Shown here piece after piece: positions 4,318-11,814 of a stretch of 64,000 nucleotides of DNA. How positions within the stretch are numbered: the first letter of the stretch is position 1; every line of letters begins with the position of its first letter. This DNA comes from an uncultured Cohaesibacter sp. (GTDB lineage Bacteria; Pseudomonadota; Alphaproteobacteria; Rhizobiales; Cohaesibacteraceae). The position numbers were made by a program, and so were the translations under genes. The DNA lies in NCBI RefSeq assembly GCF_963678225.1, contig NZ_OY782764.1, forward strand, positions 3,539,001 to 3,603,000. The letters run 5' to 3'. The notes below the pieces were generated by a model. It worked only from the letters and a program-made list of their open reading frames with translations. It was not told where the DNA came from and searched no databases.

Positions 4318-4455
4318 TAATCTGTCCCCTTGATCAATGGCACCGTGGCCGCAATCCGCTTACCTTCTTGAGTTGACAGTATAACCCGAAACGGATTGGG
4401 TTAACATTGATCACCTGTACTAGCCTTTCAAAATGAAGGGGAACAGGAGGGCAAT

Positions 4456-4485
4456 AAAAAAGCCAGCTTTTCGGGCTGGCTTTTT
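4456..4485. terminator. Rho-independent terminator
   Basis: A hairpin AAAGCCAGC-TTTTCGG-GCTGGCTTT has A-runs on the left and T-runs on the right, so it can work in both directions. It sits about 20 bp beyond the stop of the minus-strand flavoprotein gene and ends the gltB-flavoprotein unit. Confidence 0.85.
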
Positions 4486-4505: not shown

Positions 4506-6260
4506 TCAATAGACGTCACGAACGTAACGCTTTTCCTTTTTCATCAAGTTGACATAGTCCATGGCACCATCTTCACTGAGACCAGCCTGTTCTGAAATCA
4601 CCTCGTGCAAGGCGCGGTCGACATCTTTGGCCATGCGAGATGCATCACCACAGACATAGAAATGCCCACCTTCTTCAAGCGCAGCATAAAGATCCTTGGC
4701 GTGCTCCTTCATGCGCGTCTGGACATAGATCTTCTTAGCCTGATCACGCGAGAAGGCAAGGTCCAGACGGTTCAGAACGCCGTCAGATTGCATCTTGGCC
4801 AATTCATCCTTGTAGATGAAATCTGACTTTTCATGCTGGTCGCCAAAGAACAGCCAGTTATAGCCCTTGGCACCAATTGCCTGACGTTCCTGAAGGAAGG
4901 CGCGGAACGGTGCAATACCGGTGCCCGGTCCAACCATAATCATGGGAACATCGTTATTCTCCGGCACGCGGAAGCTCTTGTTGGGCGAAACAAAGACCTT
5001 GGATTTTTCTTTGCCGACACGATCAGCAAGGAAGCAAGATGCAACACCACCATGTTTGCGCCCATGGCTTTCATAGCGCACGGAAGCAATCGTTAGATGC
5101 ACGCTATCTGCAAACATCTTTGAGCTGGAGGAGATGGAATAGGCACGATGCTGCAAAGGTTTGAAGAGCTTGATCAGCTCATCAACCGAAAAACGTGCTT
5201 TCGGGTGCAGTCGTGCAATATCCAGAGCGTCCTTGGACCACAAATAGGCTTCCATCGCCTCTTTGTCGTTAAAATCGACGATATGCTGGAGATGCTCATC
5301 ATCCGTGCGAGCCGCAATGGCCTTGATGAATTCGCTAGACGGCGTTGAAATCTCCAACTGACTGAAAAGCAGGTCTTCCAGCGACTTGTCTTTGCCGGAT
5401 ACAGCGGTATCTCCGGACACACCCAAATAGTCCAGCCACTCGGAGACGAGGGCAGGGTCGTTGGTCGGGATGATGTTGAGGGCATCGCCTGCAACATAGT
5501 TCGGTCCATCGTCGGAAAGATCAAATTCGTAATGGCGAATTTCTTTAGCCGATCCTTCACCAGAAAGAAGATGATTAACCGTAACCGGCGCTTCAAACGG
5601 GTTCTTGCGCGTCCATTTGGATTTGGCCGGCTTGGCTGCCGCCGCAGCACTATGCGGGATCGGACCACCGGCATCTTCCGGCTTGTGTTTTGCCAGTTCT
5701 TCACGCGCTGAAGCCATCCAGCCGTCAGCACTTTCTTCAAAGTCAACGTCGCAATCCACACGAGCCGCCAGTCGCTTGGCGCCCAACTGCTCGAAACGAA
5801 GATCAAACTGCTTACCGGCTTCGCAATAGCCGTCATAGGCGGTATCACCCAGCGCCAGAACCGAGAAATGCATATGTTCAAGGCGAGGGGCGTCCGCCGC
5901 CTTAAGGGCATCCCAGAAGAGCTGCGCGTTATCAGGCATCTCCCCTTCGCCATAGGTGGATGTGATCAGGAAAACATAGTTCATTTCAACCAGTGCTGAG
6001 ACTTCCACATCATCCAGCGAAGCGACAACGGCGTTGACGCCTTCTGCCTTGAGCGTGGCGGCGAAGTCTTCGGCCAATCCTTCCGAATTCCCCGTCTGGG
6101 TGCCGAAAAGAATGTGAGCAGTGATGGTCGATTGGGACTCGGACGTAGAGGACTTCTTGCCGGCAAGCATCTGGGTGTGCAGCCCCGCATAGAAGCCAGC
6201 CAACCAGGACTTCTGGTCTTCAGAAAAGGGAGAGTCATCAGGAAGGAAAGGTATGGTCAT
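4506..6260 (-). CDS. CysJ-like NADPH diflavin reductase
   Basis: This 584-residue protein has the layout of sulfite reductase flavoprotein and cytochrome P450 reductase. A flavodoxin/FMN domain covers about 48-195 (FGTQTGNSEG at 52-61, STYGEGEMPDNA at 101-112). A linker and FAD domain follow (RAYS at 372-375, GVAS at 405-408), then an NADPH domain (GPGTGIAP at 444-451, SRD at 504-506, CGD at 537-539) and the typical aromatic end KRYVRDVY. It moves electrons from NADPH through FAD to FMN. No cysI hemoprotein gene is near. Instead it lies 58 bp downstream of, and co-oriented with, the long glutamate synthase gene. Homology gives sulfite reductase alpha subunit. Context suggests it may instead, or also, reduce the glutamate synthase. 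Confidence 0.85.
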   Translation of the reverse strand: MTIPFLPDDSPFSEDQKSWLAGFYAGLHTQMLAGKKSSTSESQSTITAHILFGTQTGNSEGLAEDFAATLKAEGVNAVVASLDDVEVSALVEMNYVFLITSTYGEGEMPDNAQLFWDALKAADAPRLEHMHFSVLALGDTAYDGYCEAGKQFDLRFEQLGAKRLAARVDCDVDFEESADGWMASAREELAKHKPEDAGGPIPHSAAAAAKPAKSKWTRKNPFEAPVTVNHLLSGEGSAKEIRHYEFDLSDDGPNYVAGDALNIIPTNDPALVSEWLDYLGVSGDTAVSGKDKSLEDLLFSQLEISTPSSEFIKAIAARTDDEHLQHIVDFNDKEAMEAYLWSKDALDIARLHPKARFSVDELIKLFKPLQHRAYSISSSSKMFADSVHLTIASVRYESHGRKHGGVASCFLADRVGKEKSKVFVSPNKSFRVPENNDVPMIMVGPGTGIAPFRAFLQERQAIGAKGYNWLFFGDQHEKSDFIYKDELAKMQSDGVLNRLDLAFSRDQAKKIYVQTRMKEHAKDLYAALEEGGHFYVCGDASRMAKDVDRALHEVISEQAGLSEDGAMDYVNLMKKEKRYVRDVY

Positions 6261-6318
6261 CTCTCATTGATCCGTCAATTGAAATTGATATCGAAAGGAC
6301 GTCTTGGAAAGCAGGTGC

Positions 6319-9300
6319 TCATGGCACCTGCTTGACCAGTTCCTGGCTGGAAGTCGCAGCAAACAAGCTTTCGAAATCCGGCAACTCGCCCATGGCTTTG
6401 CGGTTCAACCGATCCTGAAGCAGGATCCAGCCGTAGGTCCCGATGGAATCCATCAGGCGAACGTTCCGGTTGGACAGAGCCGTTTTATAGTCCTTCATGC
6501 GCTTGTCAGAAACCAGCACGGCCAGTTCCAGATCGGAATAGTCTTCCAGAGCCTTGCGCGCAATGCCGGACAATTTCGTCATCAGGGTGAAATCCTCGGT
6601 GAGGATCAGCTTGCGCACACCGCTATTGAGGGTTTCCGCACTGATTTCAGCGCCGCGATAGCGCCCTTTGACGATCTGCTGGGCCATGTTGATCACGGTG
6701 AAATTGTTAATCAGCTCATACATCAGCTTGGTGTCGGTTTCACCTTGCTGAGGAATGATGCCATTCGCAATCACCTTGCCATCACGATAGGCCAGCTTGA
6801 ACTTGCGCAGTTGGTACGAGACCAGAGCGTTTGCGAGCTCTTCGGTCAGTTCCTTGCGCGGTTTGGCCTTCAGAATAGCTTCATAATTCTGATAGGTTTC
6901 AAGCGCCAACGGCGTGGCGAACTTGAAGTTAGCCATTTCGGTATCGAAATTTTCCAGAAGGAACTTGGCTTTTTCCGAGCCGGTAAACTTCACATGATGA
7001 CGCAGCAGGCGCTTCACGGCGATCTGGTGCAGCTTGGCGCGGTCGCTGTCGCCGTCAAGACGATGCAGCTTGACCGAGTCATGGCTGTAAAGGGATTCCA
7101 GCTGATCATATGGATCATACTGGTAGGCAACACCACCGGACATGCCGTTGCAGAAGCCCTTGCCAAAGCCGCCAAGGTTCATGATGGCTCCGTTGGTCAT
7201 ATATTCGCCGCAGAAGTCGCCAACCCCTTCGACAACAGCGGTTGCACCGGAGTTACGAACGCCGAAACGGTCGCCAGCGCCCCCTTCAACAAACAGAGAC
7301 CCGCCAGAGGCACCAAAGAGCGCGAAGTTACCGATCAAATAGTTTTCTTCTGATCCACCACCCGGCGTGTGGATTGCGATATTGCCACCGGATGCGCCCT
7401 TGCCGACACCATCGTTACAGGTGCCAACATGATGGAACACCATGCCAGAGTTACAGAAGGCCGCATAAGACTGACCTGCCGAACCATGGGTATGGATTTC
7501 CAAAGTCTCGGGCTTGAGCATGTTGCGCCCGCGATCGTCGGTATAGACCATCGGCATTGACTTCACATGCTTTTCAGAAATCTCATGCTGCAGCATGCGT
7601 TCGATATCAATCGCCAACTGACCACCAACGGTCTTGTTGCGGTTGTCCAGTTTCTTCTCAACAACGAGCTTGGCGTTTCTGTGGTGGCGCTGAACTGCCT
7701 TATTCTTGAATTCCTTCAAGAGCATGTCGTCAATTTCAAAATGCGCTTCCAGATAAACCGGCTCTTTGATGTGAACCTCTTTGACAACCTGAAGCATATT
7801 ACGGAGATCCATCTGCCCGATGGCACTCGGATGCTTGACCAAATGCAAATAGTCTGATCGACCGCGCGCTTCGCGCATGCTCTTGAATCCGAGATTTGCG
7901 AGAATCTCACGGCACTCATGGGCGATATTCATCAGATACTGACCAAGAGCACGCGGGTCACCATCGAACACTTCAGAGTTCGTGGTCAGACCAGCAGGGC
8001 ATTTGACGTTGCAGTTTTTCGCCATAACGCATTTGAGCATCATTAGCGCTGTGGTGCCGAACTCGAAGCTGTCACCACCAAGCAGGCAGGACTTGATTAC
8101 ATCCGTGGCGGTCTGGTGCGCACCGGAACAACGCAGGATAACCTTGTCGCGTAGACCGTTAGCGCAGAGTGCCTGATGCACTTCGGCAAGGCCGATCTCG
8201 GCTGCACGGCCGGTGTTTTTGAGCGAGGTAACCGCCGCAGCACCCGTGCCGCCGGTGTTACCGGCAATGTTGATGACATCAGCACCAGCCTTGGCAACAC
8301 CGACAGCAATTGTGCCGATGCCTTCAGAGGATACGAGCTTGACGATAACTCTTACGCGAGCCGCCTTGGCGTCATGAATGAGCTGAGCCAAATCCTCAAT
8401 GGAATAGGTATCGTGATGCGGTGGAGGTGAGATAAGCTCAACCCCCGGCGTGCCACCACGCGCAGCAGCAATCTCAACCGTTACCTTCTTGCCCGGCAGC
8501 TGACCACCTTCACCCGGCTTGGCTCCCTGAGCAATCTTGATCTCAATTTCTTCCAGAGTCGGGTCGGCCAGATAGCCAGTCCAAACGCCGAAGCGACCGG
8601 AAGCAAGCTGCTTGATGCTCGAAGAGCGGATCGTGCCATAACGGGAATAATGCTCACCACCTTCACCAGAGTTGGAGAAGGCGCCGACCATGTTTGCGCC
8701 ATGGGCAACGGCTTCATGAGCCGGCGCCACCAGAGCCCCATGAGACATGGCGCCAGAGGCAAGCATCGCCGTAATTTCGTGAGCAGGCTGAACTTTGTTT
8801 AGAGCCAGCTTGCCATTCGGGCGTTTGTGGTTTGCCAGATAGTTATGAGCGAGCCCCTTGGCGGTAATATGAATATGTTCGCCTTCAGTTTCCATGGTAA
8901 GCAACTCGTCACCGAACTGTTTCTTCAGGGCAACAGACAGGGCAACCAGTCTTTCATGGCTATATTTGCTCGCAAAGAAGGCCGTAAAGCTGTCATCCTT
9001 GTTGTGATGGACCCGCAAACCGCGAACGTAGAAGTTGTTGTTGCCGATCAGATCGTGCCGGAACAGTTCGTGTTGGAATTCATCCGCCGTGGTTGCCCAG
9101 CTGATATCAGTTGGGAAGCACAGCACATCACGCAAAGCGGCAGGGCGGGCTTCACGTTCCTTGGCCAGTTCCAGAGCAAACTTGCGATAGTTTGGCGTGA
9201 TCTTGAAGGCGTCGATTTCCTCTGGCGTACGGCGTCCAAAACTGGTGTTCCGATAGGAATCCGAGCTCTTGCCATAAGCATCCTTGAGTTTCTCGACCGG

Positions 9301-11814
9301 CAGAAGGCGCAAATCATTGACGTTTGCGTCGCCCTTTTCCGGAGCTGACAAATCCGACTGGATCGGCTCTTCGGTCATTTCGACAAATCCGCGAACAGCC
9401 AACGTACCATAGGTATGACCAGCCCCCTCGGAACGCTCTTTAAAGAGGCCGAGCAGAGGAATGTCATCTTCGGTTTTGACTTCGCACGCGCGAATGTGCC
9501 AATCAACAACGCTTTTTGCAACAGAAGCAAAGTCAACGCCACCAACCGTGTTCTTCATGTTGGGGAAGTAGCGTTTCAGAATGGCTTCGTCCGTATCAAG
9601 GAAGTTTGGCTCAAAGAATTCACCGCCAATGTAGCTCTCCGCGGTGCAGAGGCCCACTTTACCCATGGTCTTCATGAGGGACTTGTTGGCGGCGTAGATG
9701 AACTGCTTGATGTTTGCCTTGGCTGCGTCCAGATCACCCTTTGCAAACTCCATGGCACGGGCTTCCACGACGATCGGCATAACAGCCGAGGCACCAAAGC
9801 CCAGAGCCGTCGCGATCTGATGGGCAGAGGCTATCTGACCACTTTCCGCAACAAGAGATACGCGGAAGCGCACGCCCTGTTCAATCAGGCGCTGGTTAGC
9901 AGCTGAAATCATCAAAGGCAGCGGAATGGCAGCTCTTTTCTCGTCCACCATCGCGTCAGACAGAATGACGATGCCACCCTTTTCGCGCGCAGCTTCTTCT
10001 ACCTCATCACAAACAGCATCAACGGCGGCGATGAGATCGTCCTGTGCCTTTGACTTGTTGGCTTTGTGATCAACAAGGAAGGTCATGGCGATCTCGGTGA
10101 CTTCTACATCGCCTTGCGCCCGAATGGCAGACAGATCATCAGGCGAAAGCACTGGCGTTGGAACAACCAGCTGCTTGGTTTCACCCTTGTTGAAATGCGG
10201 CTTCGCACCCAAGGCAACGCGCAAGGTCATGCCGTCTGCTTCACGCAGACTGTCGAGCGGCGGGTTGGTGACCTGAGCAAAGCGCTGGGAGAAATATTTC
10301 GACATGCCGCCTTCCTGATCGGTTAGCGCATTGATAGCTACGCCGTAGCCCATTGCCGAAATCTTTTCCTTGCCGGTCTGCATCATCGGGTCCAGCAGGA
10401 ACTTGAAGCTCTCCTGGTTGAGGCCATAAGCAACCGAACGCTGAACATCGGTGAAGGATTCCGCAACCTTGGTCTTGCCATCTGTGCGCGGCAGATCATC
10501 GAGGTTTTTGCGTGCTCTCTCAAGCAGCGAACGATAGTCGCGCTTTGATGCAAGCATTTTGAGAGCTTCATCAGAGGTGTAGGATTGTTTGGTCTCATGA
10601 TCATAATAGAGCATGCCACCAGCTTCGATGCGTCCACGCCGCAGGATGCTTTCAGGATCAAAATCAACCTGACCGGCTTCTGACATCACACAAAGATACT
10701 CGTCCGTCTCCACAGAACGGAGAGGGCGCAGGCCCAAGCGGTCAAGACGCGCACCGACAACCGTGCCGTTCCCGAAGATCAGAGCGGCTGGCCCGTCATT
10801 CTTCTCTTCATAAAGAGAGAAATATTCAAGCATCACGCGAACATCCTCAGGAAAACGCGTGTCATTCTCCCAAGCCGGCGGCATCATGGCCACAACAGCC
10901 GTGATCAGATCAAGATCGTCCTCAATCAGACGGCGCTCAAGCGTCTGGTCAAGACGCGCAGAGTCAGACTGCCCGGGAGGGGAATAGATCTGCTGGTTCT
11001 TCATCTGGGCAATTGTTGCTTCAGAGAGGCGGTTCTTCTTGTCCGTGTTGAGCTCGCCGTTATGCGCCATCAAACGGAACGGCTGCGCCATAGAAGGCTG
11101 CGGCTCGGTGTTGGTGGAAAAACGCGTATGGAAGAACAGCGAGTGGATCTTGTGATCCTCATCGGTCAGATCGTAGAAATAGGGGATGACCTCGTTCGAG
11201 TTGAGACGGCCCTTATAGACCTGCGTATGCGCAGACATGGAAAGCGGGTAAAGCCCCTTGAGATCAGGATCCAGATAAGCCACGGCTTCAATGGCCATCA
11301 GCGCATCATGAATCTTGCGGTCAAAAGTCTTGGCATCCATCGTTTCATCTTTAATGAAAACGACCTGGTGCACCGTCAGCATATATTTCAAGGCTGCTGG
11401 GCGAATGACCGAGTTGTTCACCGGAGCATCGCGCACAAGAACGATGCGCAAACCATTTTTCTCAAGGCTTTCCTTGATCAGCTTGTCTGCCGCATCCCAG
11501 TTTTTTTTCAGCTCTGGCAGAAAGAAGTTGCCAACGCCGAATTCGCCCAGTTCCAGAGTGGGGAGGCCTGTGATCTTGCGGAAGAAAGACAGAGACAAAT
11601 CAACGCAAACGCCAGCGCCATCGCCGACACCTTCCGCGCTCATGCCGCCACGATGGGGAACGGTGCACAAAGCTTCGTTCGCCTTCAAAAGAACATCATG
11701 GGTTTGAACGCCGGATTTGTAAGTCAAGAAGCCAACACCGCAGCTGCTTTTTTCAAAGCTATGGTCATACAGGCCGAATTGATTCTGAGACTGTTCCAAA
11801 CCGCTTATCCTCAC
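6319..11814 (-). CDS. gltB: Long-form glutamate synthase, large-subunit type
   Basis: This enzyme makes two glutamates from glutamine and 2-oxoglutarate. Its 1831 residues exceed the usual 1480-1550. A 24-residue propeptide precedes Cys25 (SSCGVGF), the N-terminal nucleophile of the class II amidotransferase domain (25 to about 430). A central domain follows, then the FMN-binding synthase domain (about 1005-1380) with a cysteine cluster at 1262, 1268 and 1272, and a GXGXG beta-helix domain (about 1440-1590). Two additions stand out: about 100 extra residues at 905-1005 and about 190 after 1640. The cysteine spacing is C-x5-C-x3-C, not the usual C-x5-C-x4-C. Translation starts at GTG. No gltD is in the window; a diflavin reductase follows. 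It is clearly of the family but divergent. Confidence 0.88.
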   Translation of the reverse strand: MRISGLEQSQNQFGLYDHSFEKSSCGVGFLTYKSGVQTHDVLLKANEALCTVPHRGGMSAEGVGDGAGVCVDLSLSFFRKITGLPTLELGEFGVGNFFLPELKKNWDAADKLIKESLEKNGLRIVLVRDAPVNNSVIRPAALKYMLTVHQVVFIKDETMDAKTFDRKIHDALMAIEAVAYLDPDLKGLYPLSMSAHTQVYKGRLNSNEVIPYFYDLTDEDHKIHSLFFHTRFSTNTEPQPSMAQPFRLMAHNGELNTDKKNRLSEATIAQMKNQQIYSPPGQSDSARLDQTLERRLIEDDLDLITAVVAMMPPAWENDTRFPEDVRVMLEYFSLYEEKNDGPAALIFGNGTVVGARLDRLGLRPLRSVETDEYLCVMSEAGQVDFDPESILRRGRIEAGGMLYYDHETKQSYTSDEALKMLASKRDYRSLLERARKNLDDLPRTDGKTKVAESFTDVQRSVAYGLNQESFKFLLDPMMQTGKEKISAMGYGVAINALTDQEGGMSKYFSQRFAQVTNPPLDSLREADGMTLRVALGAKPHFNKGETKQLVVPTPVLSPDDLSAIRAQGDVEVTEIAMTFLVDHKANKSKAQDDLIAAVDAVCDEVEEAAREKGGIVILSDAMVDEKRAAIPLPLMISAANQRLIEQGVRFRVSLVAESGQIASAHQIATALGFGASAVMPIVVEARAMEFAKGDLDAAKANIKQFIYAANKSLMKTMGKVGLCTAESYIGGEFFEPNFLDTDEAILKRYFPNMKNTVGGVDFASVAKSVVDWHIRACEVKTEDDIPLLGLFKERSEGAGHTYGTLAVRGFVEMTEEPIQSDLSAPEKGDANVNDLRLLPVEKLKDAYGKSSDSYRNTSFGRRTPEEIDAFKITPNYRKFALELAKEREARPAALRDVLCFPTDISWATTADEFQHELFRHDLIGNNNFYVRGLRVHHNKDDSFTAFFASKYSHERLVALSVALKKQFGDELLTMETEGEHIHITAKGLAHNYLANHKRPNGKLALNKVQPAHEITAMLASGAMSHGALVAPAHEAVAHGANMVGAFSNSGEGGEHYSRYGTIRSSSIKQLASGRFGVWTGYLADPTLEEIEIKIAQGAKPGEGGQLPGKKVTVEIAAARGGTPGVELISPPPHHDTYSIEDLAQLIHDAKAARVRVIVKLVSSEGIGTIAVGVAKAGADVINIAGNTGGTGAAAVTSLKNTGRAAEIGLAEVHQALCANGLRDKVILRCSGAHQTATDVIKSCLLGGDSFEFGTTALMMLKCVMAKNCNVKCPAGLTTNSEVFDGDPRALGQYLMNIAHECREILANLGFKSMREARGRSDYLHLVKHPSAIGQMDLRNMLQVVKEVHIKEPVYLEAHFEIDDMLLKEFKNKAVQRHHRNAKLVVEKKLDNRNKTVGGQLAIDIERMLQHEISEKHVKSMPMVYTDDRGRNMLKPETLEIHTHGSAGQSYAAFCNSGMVFHHVGTCNDGVGKGASGGNIAIHTPGGGSEENYLIGNFALFGASGGSLFVEGGAGDRFGVRNSGATAVVEGVGDFCGEYMTNGAIMNLGGFGKGFCNGMSGGVAYQYDPYDQLESLYSHDSVKLHRLDGDSDRAKLHQIAVKRLLRHHVKFTGSEKAKFLLENFDTEMANFKFATPLALETYQNYEAILKAKPRKELTEELANALVSYQLRKFKLAYRDGKVIANGIIPQQGETDTKLMYELINNFTVINMAQQIVKGRYRGAEISAETLNSGVRKLILTEDFTLMTKLSGIARKALEDYSDLELAVLVSDKRMKDYKTALSNRNVRLMDSIGTYGWILLQDRLNRKAMGELPDFESLFAATSSQELVKQVP

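Follow-up and report, generated by a model that had tools for sequence, protein, structure and literature searches.

A variant glutamate synthase paired with a CysJ-like diflavin reductase in Cohaesibacter, a probable further class of glutamate synthase

The window analysed here is a stretch of 64,000 nucleotides from a Cohaesibacter genome (G000; 4.94 Mb in 2 contigs, 99.74% complete), whose named near relatives are Cohaesibacter, C. marisflavi showing 100% identity across the C-terminal extension of the synthase described below. The minus strand of the window carries a gene coding for a GltB-like variant of the glutamate synthase large subunit, of 1831 aa with a GTG start (positions 6319..11814), and a gene coding for a CysJ-like diflavin reductase of 584 aa with an ATG start (4506..6260, minus strand), the proposed electron-input subunit. 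A preliminary description of this DNA had reported the two genes as following each other on one strand, and both open reading frames were recovered in this arrangement, with 58 bp between the synthase stop and the reductase ATG. The terminator that it had placed after the pair corresponds to a terminator-like hairpin (4454..4485, minus strand), with a GCCAGC/GCTGGC stem and then a T run after the reductase stop, which closes the two-gene unit and is absent from the output of the automatic terminator scan. No GltD gene was found among the open reading frames next to the synthase. Pfam assigned alpha-amylase-like and 4-alpha-glucanotransferase genes, on the plus strand, to one flank, and to the other a PhaC-type gene together with one for an ABC-transporter ATPase, so that the unit consists of the two genes.

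The synthase shows the GltB set of Pfam domains, GATase_2, Glu_syn_central, Glu_synthase and GXGXG, and narrowly missed the NCBIfam GltB equivalog cut-off, with a score of 1019.3 against 1047. The solved structures related to it are chains of GltB and Fd-GltS, 1472-1520 aa long, and its identity with canonical GltB is 32-46% over the matched stretches. An alignment was built of 55 variants (the window synthase and 54 relatives) with the GltB of E. coli and of genome G018 as canonical pair. The class-II glutaminase domain (PF00310, residues 25-429, positions 10528..11742, minus strand) begins with Cys25 (codon 11740..11742, minus strand), which aligns with the cysteine of both canonical GltBs and is kept in all 9 variant rows printed from this alignment. 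From the established knowledge of GltB, we take this residue to be the glutaminase nucleophile, predicted to become N-terminal after propeptide removal. The glutaminase motifs HNGE, RFSTNT and GQSDS and the synthase motifs GAKPGEGGQLP and SPPPHHD are kept in the variant rows shown, the glutaminase and FMN-domain motifs being retained in the 9 printed rows and also, where covered, in a 14-row genus-level alignment. The GYDGGTGA sequence of canonical GltB is replaced in the variant by GNTGGTGA, and neighbouring residues are altered as well.

The iron-sulfur cluster loop of the window synthase (C1262-C1268-C1272, positions 7999..8031, minus strand) has the spacing CX5CX3C, which is present in 55/55 variants, whereas both E. 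coli and G018 GltB have CX5CX4C. A variant-specific insert (residues 905-1003, positions 8806..9102, minus strand), defined by the alignment and predicted by modelling to be alpha/beta, lies in the N-terminal portion of the FMN domain and is 98-106 residues long in all 55 variants; the two canonical GltBs have 5 and 9 residues there. Beyond the GXGXG beta-helix domain (PF01493, residues 1424-1590, positions 7045..7545, minus strand), the protein ends in a variant-specific C-terminal helical domain (residues 1645-1831, positions 6322..6882, minus strand), a proposed docking module. This extension has 183-188 residues in 55/55 variants and is nearly absent from both canonical GltBs. It was predicted to be all-helical by AlphaFold2, with a mean pLDDT of 85.6, and a PDB fold search with the model of the domain gave no confident match. 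By these alignment features, the window synthase belongs to a distinct variant subfamily of GltB.

The reductase is complete, as had been claimed, with a flavodoxin (FMN) domain (Flavodoxin_1, PF00258, residues 50-174, positions 5739..6113), a FAD-binding domain (FAD_binding_1, PF00667, residues 217-409, 5034..5612) and a NADP(H)-binding domain (NAD_binding_1, PF00175, residues 442-548, 4617..4937), all on the minus strand and in the order found in CysJ. Residues 47-584 align with the sulfite reductase flavoprotein subunit, CysJ and P450 reductase being the solved relatives, and the N-terminal motif W..G...G resembles that of CysJ. CysJ was the best-scoring named model, yet the score remained below the cut-off of the cysJ equivalog TIGR01931 (606.9 against 668.15 bits); NF004859 (sulfite reductase subunit alpha) was passed with 448.7 for a cut-off of 432. 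When seven patterns were scored in 55 partner reductases, five informative cofactor motifs and one trivial two-letter pattern were present in 55/55, and the seventh pattern in 53/55.

We then considered a tree of 37 reductase sequences, among them 23 pair members, 11 NIR_SIR-linked reductases and 1 unpaired reductase from Paracoccus. The pair reductases were set apart from the 11 NIR_SIR-linked ones with a support of 100/99, the unpaired Paracoccus row falling inside their group. They do not form one clade in the best tree, and the single-clade grouping appeared in 0% of 200 bootstrap trees, because the long-branched Paracoccus row sits inside the pair group; a constrained tree with the pair reductases as one clade was not rejected (AU p = 0.111). 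In this sequence phylogeny, the lineage of the pair reductases is separate from that of the CysI-linked CysJ. The Paracoccus reductase is encoded on plasmid NZ_CP098363 (L156:6034-7737) near genes of the glutamine-synthetase family; its synthase may have been lost, or it may serve another acceptor.

Synthase loci were searched for in 84,980 species genomes with the C-terminal extension only, via two short peptide patterns, a search that relatives without those peptides escape and in which the reductase sequence played no part. It recovered 64 loci, and a reductase match lay directly downstream of the synthase, on the same strand, in 64/64, an adjacency far beyond chance; the reductase adjoins the synthase downstream in 18/18 relatives as well. 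The carriers named include Cohaesibacter, Pseudovibrio, a Rhodobacteraceae strain, Hyphomicrobium, Agrobacterium, Rhizobium, Neorhizobium, Shinella, Azorhizobium, Ancylobacter, Hansschlegelia, Methylopila and the betaproteobacterium Methylobacillus. Over 58 intact loci and 5 plasmid loci, the gap between the two genes had a median of 10 bp (range -4 to 154); one of these 63 pairs scored as intact, L083, is without its N-terminus at a contig end. The six loci of the 64 that are not intact comprise L095, truncated at contig ends, and loci in which the frame of the synthase (L086, L118, L136 and L137) or of the reductase (L086 and L122) is broken, either by decay or by sequencing errors.

The same association was found on plasmids. 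A scan of 72,556 plasmid records found the extension in 9; these nine are also the ones with a reductase of at least 52% identity (44.5% for the next match), which lay directly downstream of the synthase in 9/9. These carriers include a conjugative Ketogulonicigenium plasmid and one from Tsukamurella, an actinobacterium. The genes around the pair vary among four annotated plasmid regions, a fifth record being without annotation there, and since the flanks differ around a constant pair, we read the two genes as moving together. Of 385 genomes drawn across the class, 3 contained the extension, G000 included, and both others have the reductase next door; the system is patchy and rare. In a set of 61 genomes (G000, 17 of the same genus, 2 of the same family and 41 of the same order), the variant synthase was present in 19, namely all 18 of the genus and G019. 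The reductase was present in all 19, with 63-100% identity, and the other 42 genomes had no match above 43%. The distances between synthases and between their partner reductases were correlated (r = 0.939, n = 54; the highest of 999 permutations was 0.378), a correlation also expected from plain co-inheritance. Linkage of this strength shows functional coupling, and does not in itself imply the direction of the electrons.

GltD has FAD and two 4Fe-4S clusters as cofactors. Diflavin reductases are well known to pass single electrons to metal centres, such as the heme of CysI and P450, so that the chemistry proposed here would be ordinary and the acceptor new. From the sequence comparisons, we consider it probable, at roughly 80%, that the pair constitutes a further class of glutamate synthase, with a diflavin reductase in place of the iron-sulfur GltD. 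This corresponds to the third arrangement put forward in the preliminary description, a flavodoxin-domain reductase paired with the synthase, and the genomic tests agree with it, none giving a result against it. The gene pair is intact, it is strictly linked over distant hosts and keeps its motifs, and canonical gltB is missing in several carriers; we infer that the two proteins form a complex in which the reductase transfers electrons to the synthase and the product is glutamate. Because its domains and motifs are conserved, the large subunit would hydrolyse glutamine, channel the ammonia to 2-oxoglutarate and reduce the imine on FMN, as in GltB. The electrons would come from the partner diflavin reductase, neither from GltD nor from free ferredoxin, and would pass from NADPH via FAD and the flavodoxin-type FMN of the reductase to the synthase, where the Fe-S cluster and then the FMN would carry them to 2-iminoglutarate. 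Adaptation to the new partner would likely account for the altered cluster loop, the insert and the helical C-terminal domain. Weighing against this reading are the CysJ-like N-terminal motif, the score over the NF004859 cut-off, the lack of a single clade for the pair reductases, the canonical gltD in 23/27 carriers and the GDH-like proteins (at least 177 bits) in 8/25 genomes.

Compared with GltBD of Azospirillum brasilense and E. coli, the pair is likewise organised as a large subunit and a reductase gene, and its large subunit shares the four Pfam domains, an N-terminal Cys and the FMN and cluster region. It differs by its flavin-only diflavin partner and the lack of GltD, and its synthase by the CX5CX3C loop, the insert of about 100 residues and the C-terminal domain of about 185 residues. 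With Fd-GltS of cyanobacteria and chloroplasts it shares a large subunit without GltD, a one-electron donor feeding the 3Fe-4S cluster in Fd-GltS, and it differs by a dedicated adjoining NADPH reductase gene and by the extra domains. With CysJ, the reductase has in common the FMN-FAD-NADPH architecture and the N-terminal motif; it differs by being GltB-linked, not CysI-linked, by its place in the tree and by its score under the cysJ equivalog cut-off. The Paraburkholderia plasmid AP028202 (L155:3610-7773) encodes, beside nirBD, an annotated nitrate reductase fused to a CysJ-like diflavin reductase. This is one fused polypeptide, unlike the pair, and its acceptor is annotated as a nitrate reductase; by annotation, it is a precedent for a CysJ-like reductase feeding another acceptor. 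No description of the pairing of a glutamate synthase with a diflavin reductase was recognised in the open-licence PMC full-text literature, and we know of no earlier report of it. As far as the excerpts of one account go (PMC8097209), the electron inputs described for glutamate synthase are GltD, using NADPH (in some eukaryotes NADH, in a fused form), or ferredoxin, and Fd-GltS is similar in size to bacterial GltB and receives electrons from reduced ferredoxin. The excerpted part of a paper on the Brucella ovis flavoproteome presents an ordinary gltB-gltD and a reductase of another kind, attached to the membrane.

Other genes for glutamate formation were searched for in the carriers. In the whole G000 genome, no second GltB-like protein was found beyond the variant. 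The GltD-type domain Fer4_20 occurs in four G000 open reading frames (two given only in part), none of which passed the NCBIfam GltD cut-offs TIGR01317/TIGR01318, and no second gltBD was found in this genome. One of the four, L005, passed TIGR01316 (NADPH-dependent glutamate synthase); since it adjoins an open reading frame of 322 aa that resembles NfnA by eye, it is probably Nfn rather than GltD. Canonical GltD (full length, 56-75% identity) is present in 23 of 27 carrier genomes tested, drawn from the 64 loci, and the pair would therefore be accessory there. The remaining four are two Pseudovibrio, the Rhodobacteraceae strain NBU2976 (with a 31% match only) and Methylobacillus rhizosphaerae (G065), in which the pair is present and no GltD-like match was obtained at E 0.001. 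Canonical GltB was present in 4/13 genomes tested and absent from 9/13, which include G000, the two Pseudovibrio, NBU2976, M. rhizosphaerae, G019 and two further class members; in these nine, the variant is the sole glutamate synthase large subunit found. Conservation of the pair extends to genomes lacking canonical gltB or gltD.

Alternatively, the synthase might be fed by ferredoxin, flavodoxin or a GltD-like paralogue (e.g. Nfn-like), and the reductase serve another acceptor, for example in heme handling via a HemS-like neighbour. The GltD-like paralogues of G000 and the HemS/ChuX-domain gene just downstream of the pair in some carriers are compatible with this division, which we nevertheless consider unlikely: L005 has its own NfnA-like partner, M. 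rhizosphaerae keeps the pair with no GltD-like match, and tblastn places the HemS-like gene after the pair in 11/69 loci, with weak partial matches in two, whereas the reductase is there in all. The HemS-like gene is also absent from the near-identical locus L075 and from the neighbours in the window.

The complex could also depend on the diflavin reductase and yield a different product, using another 2-oxo acid or amide donor, so that it would not function as a glutamate synthase. The modest identity with canonical GltB, the change of GYDGGTGA and nearby residues and the canonical gltD found in many carriers point that way, but the glutaminase and synthase motifs are kept in the rows shown and the variant is the sole GltB in 9/13 genomes. 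In a search of 25 genomes for the glutamate dehydrogenase type PF00208, a match of at least 177 bits was obtained in 8, five being Cohaesibacter; G000 gave a sub-cut-off match only, within a frame of 1623 aa, and G191, G397 and the Cohaesibacter genome G005 gave no match. In these three the variant would be the likely route to glutamate. We give little credence to a different product.

The relation of the pair to sulfite reductase was addressed with PF01077 (NIR_SIR). The profile search of G000 gave 0 matches, with no CysI or NirB found, for a family detected in 11/14 known genomes used as control; the absence of cysI, noted at first for the window, holds for the rest of the genome. NIR_SIR proteins are present in 40/42 genomes without the variant synthase and reductase and in 16/19 with them, so the reductase tracks the synthase, not sulfite reductase. 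Within the genus, 15/18 genomes have a NIR_SIR match, and G000, G009 and G013 carry the pair with none, in line with the suggestion that the pair is conserved where cysI is lacking. In five others (G001, G007, G011, G014 and G016), the pair is accompanied by a second reductase, of 39-41% identity, beside a NIR_SIR open reading frame, which is the expected CysJI layout. Because G000 is without NIR_SIR and a separate CysJ lies beside NIR_SIR in five sisters, the reductase of the pair is no ordinary CysJ. That it should be the CysJ of a sulfite reductase, acting in trans with a distant CysI and only incidentally beside gltB, is very improbable: the CysJ domain order, the common N-terminal motif, the 606.9 bits of the top named model and the NIR_SIR proteins in 16/19 carriers of the relatives set, where it could moonlight and serve both enzymes, are outweighed by the absence of NIR_SIR from G000 and two sisters, the separate CysJ in five sisters, the 40/42 relatives that have NIR_SIR with none having the pair reductase, and the 64/64 linkage to the synthase.

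A search of G000 for PAPS_reduct gave three matches, two CysD-like copies and one distant protein, and for this reason sulfate assimilation may be lost in this genome. The CysD-like copies (G000:C2:571947-572630, plus strand, and 583108-583791, minus strand) have identical scores and opposite orientations about 10.5 kb apart, the first adjoining, by eye, a CysN-like gene and a gene like an ABC-type polysaccharide export permease. The genome also encodes a second flavodoxin/FAD/NADPH reductase (L003:61-1944, on G000:C2 near 617 kb), with a membrane part by eye, and the open reading frame after it looks ApbE-like. In Caulobacter, a 'sulfite reductase flavoprotein' beside ApbE was strongly induced under iron limitation, according to the excerpted part of the report (PMC3751524).

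A link of the pair with iron can be proposed more tentatively. The pair may be a glutamate synthase class that spares iron and moves horizontally. In many rhizobia and methylotrophs it would accompany a normal gltBD as the option for low iron, whereas it would have taken over fully in Cohaesibacter, in both Pseudovibrio, in a Rhodobacteraceae strain and in Methylobacillus rhizosphaerae; we hold this view as speculative and rather doubtful. If true, the diflavin reductase would save, relative to GltD, two 4Fe-4S clusters (8 Fe) per protomer; the replacement of ferredoxin by flavodoxin is a parallel for such a swap. Behind the pair, HemS/ChuX-like genes occur in several methylotroph and Xanthobacteraceae loci; the matches are in L110 (12628-13617), L120, L122, L123, L133, L089, L130 and L119 and, more weakly, in L142, L141 and L138. 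When five of these HemS-like proteins were examined with Pfam, four scored over the HemS cut-off and the Ketogulonicigenium one below it. The HemS/ChuX-like gene is a possible third component, and it hints at a connection with iron or heme in some of the carriers. Siderophore genes follow the pair in Ketogulonicigenium, and a TonB-dependent receptor gene lies upstream of it in M. rhizosphaerae. In Caulobacter, the canonical gltBD was lowered when iron was limiting, in the same excerpted report (PMC3751524), a response of another organism and another system which would fit an iron-sparing role of a flavin-only partner.

Glutamate synthase is one of the central points at which ammonia enters metabolism. 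If the proposed reading is true, a diflavin input to its Fe-S/FMN machinery would represent a further class of the enzyme, and the electron-input module would be swappable between unrelated reductases. Annotations would also be corrected, since the plasmid records name the two proteins 'glutamate synthase-related protein' or gltB and 'sulfite reductase subunit alpha' or cysJ.
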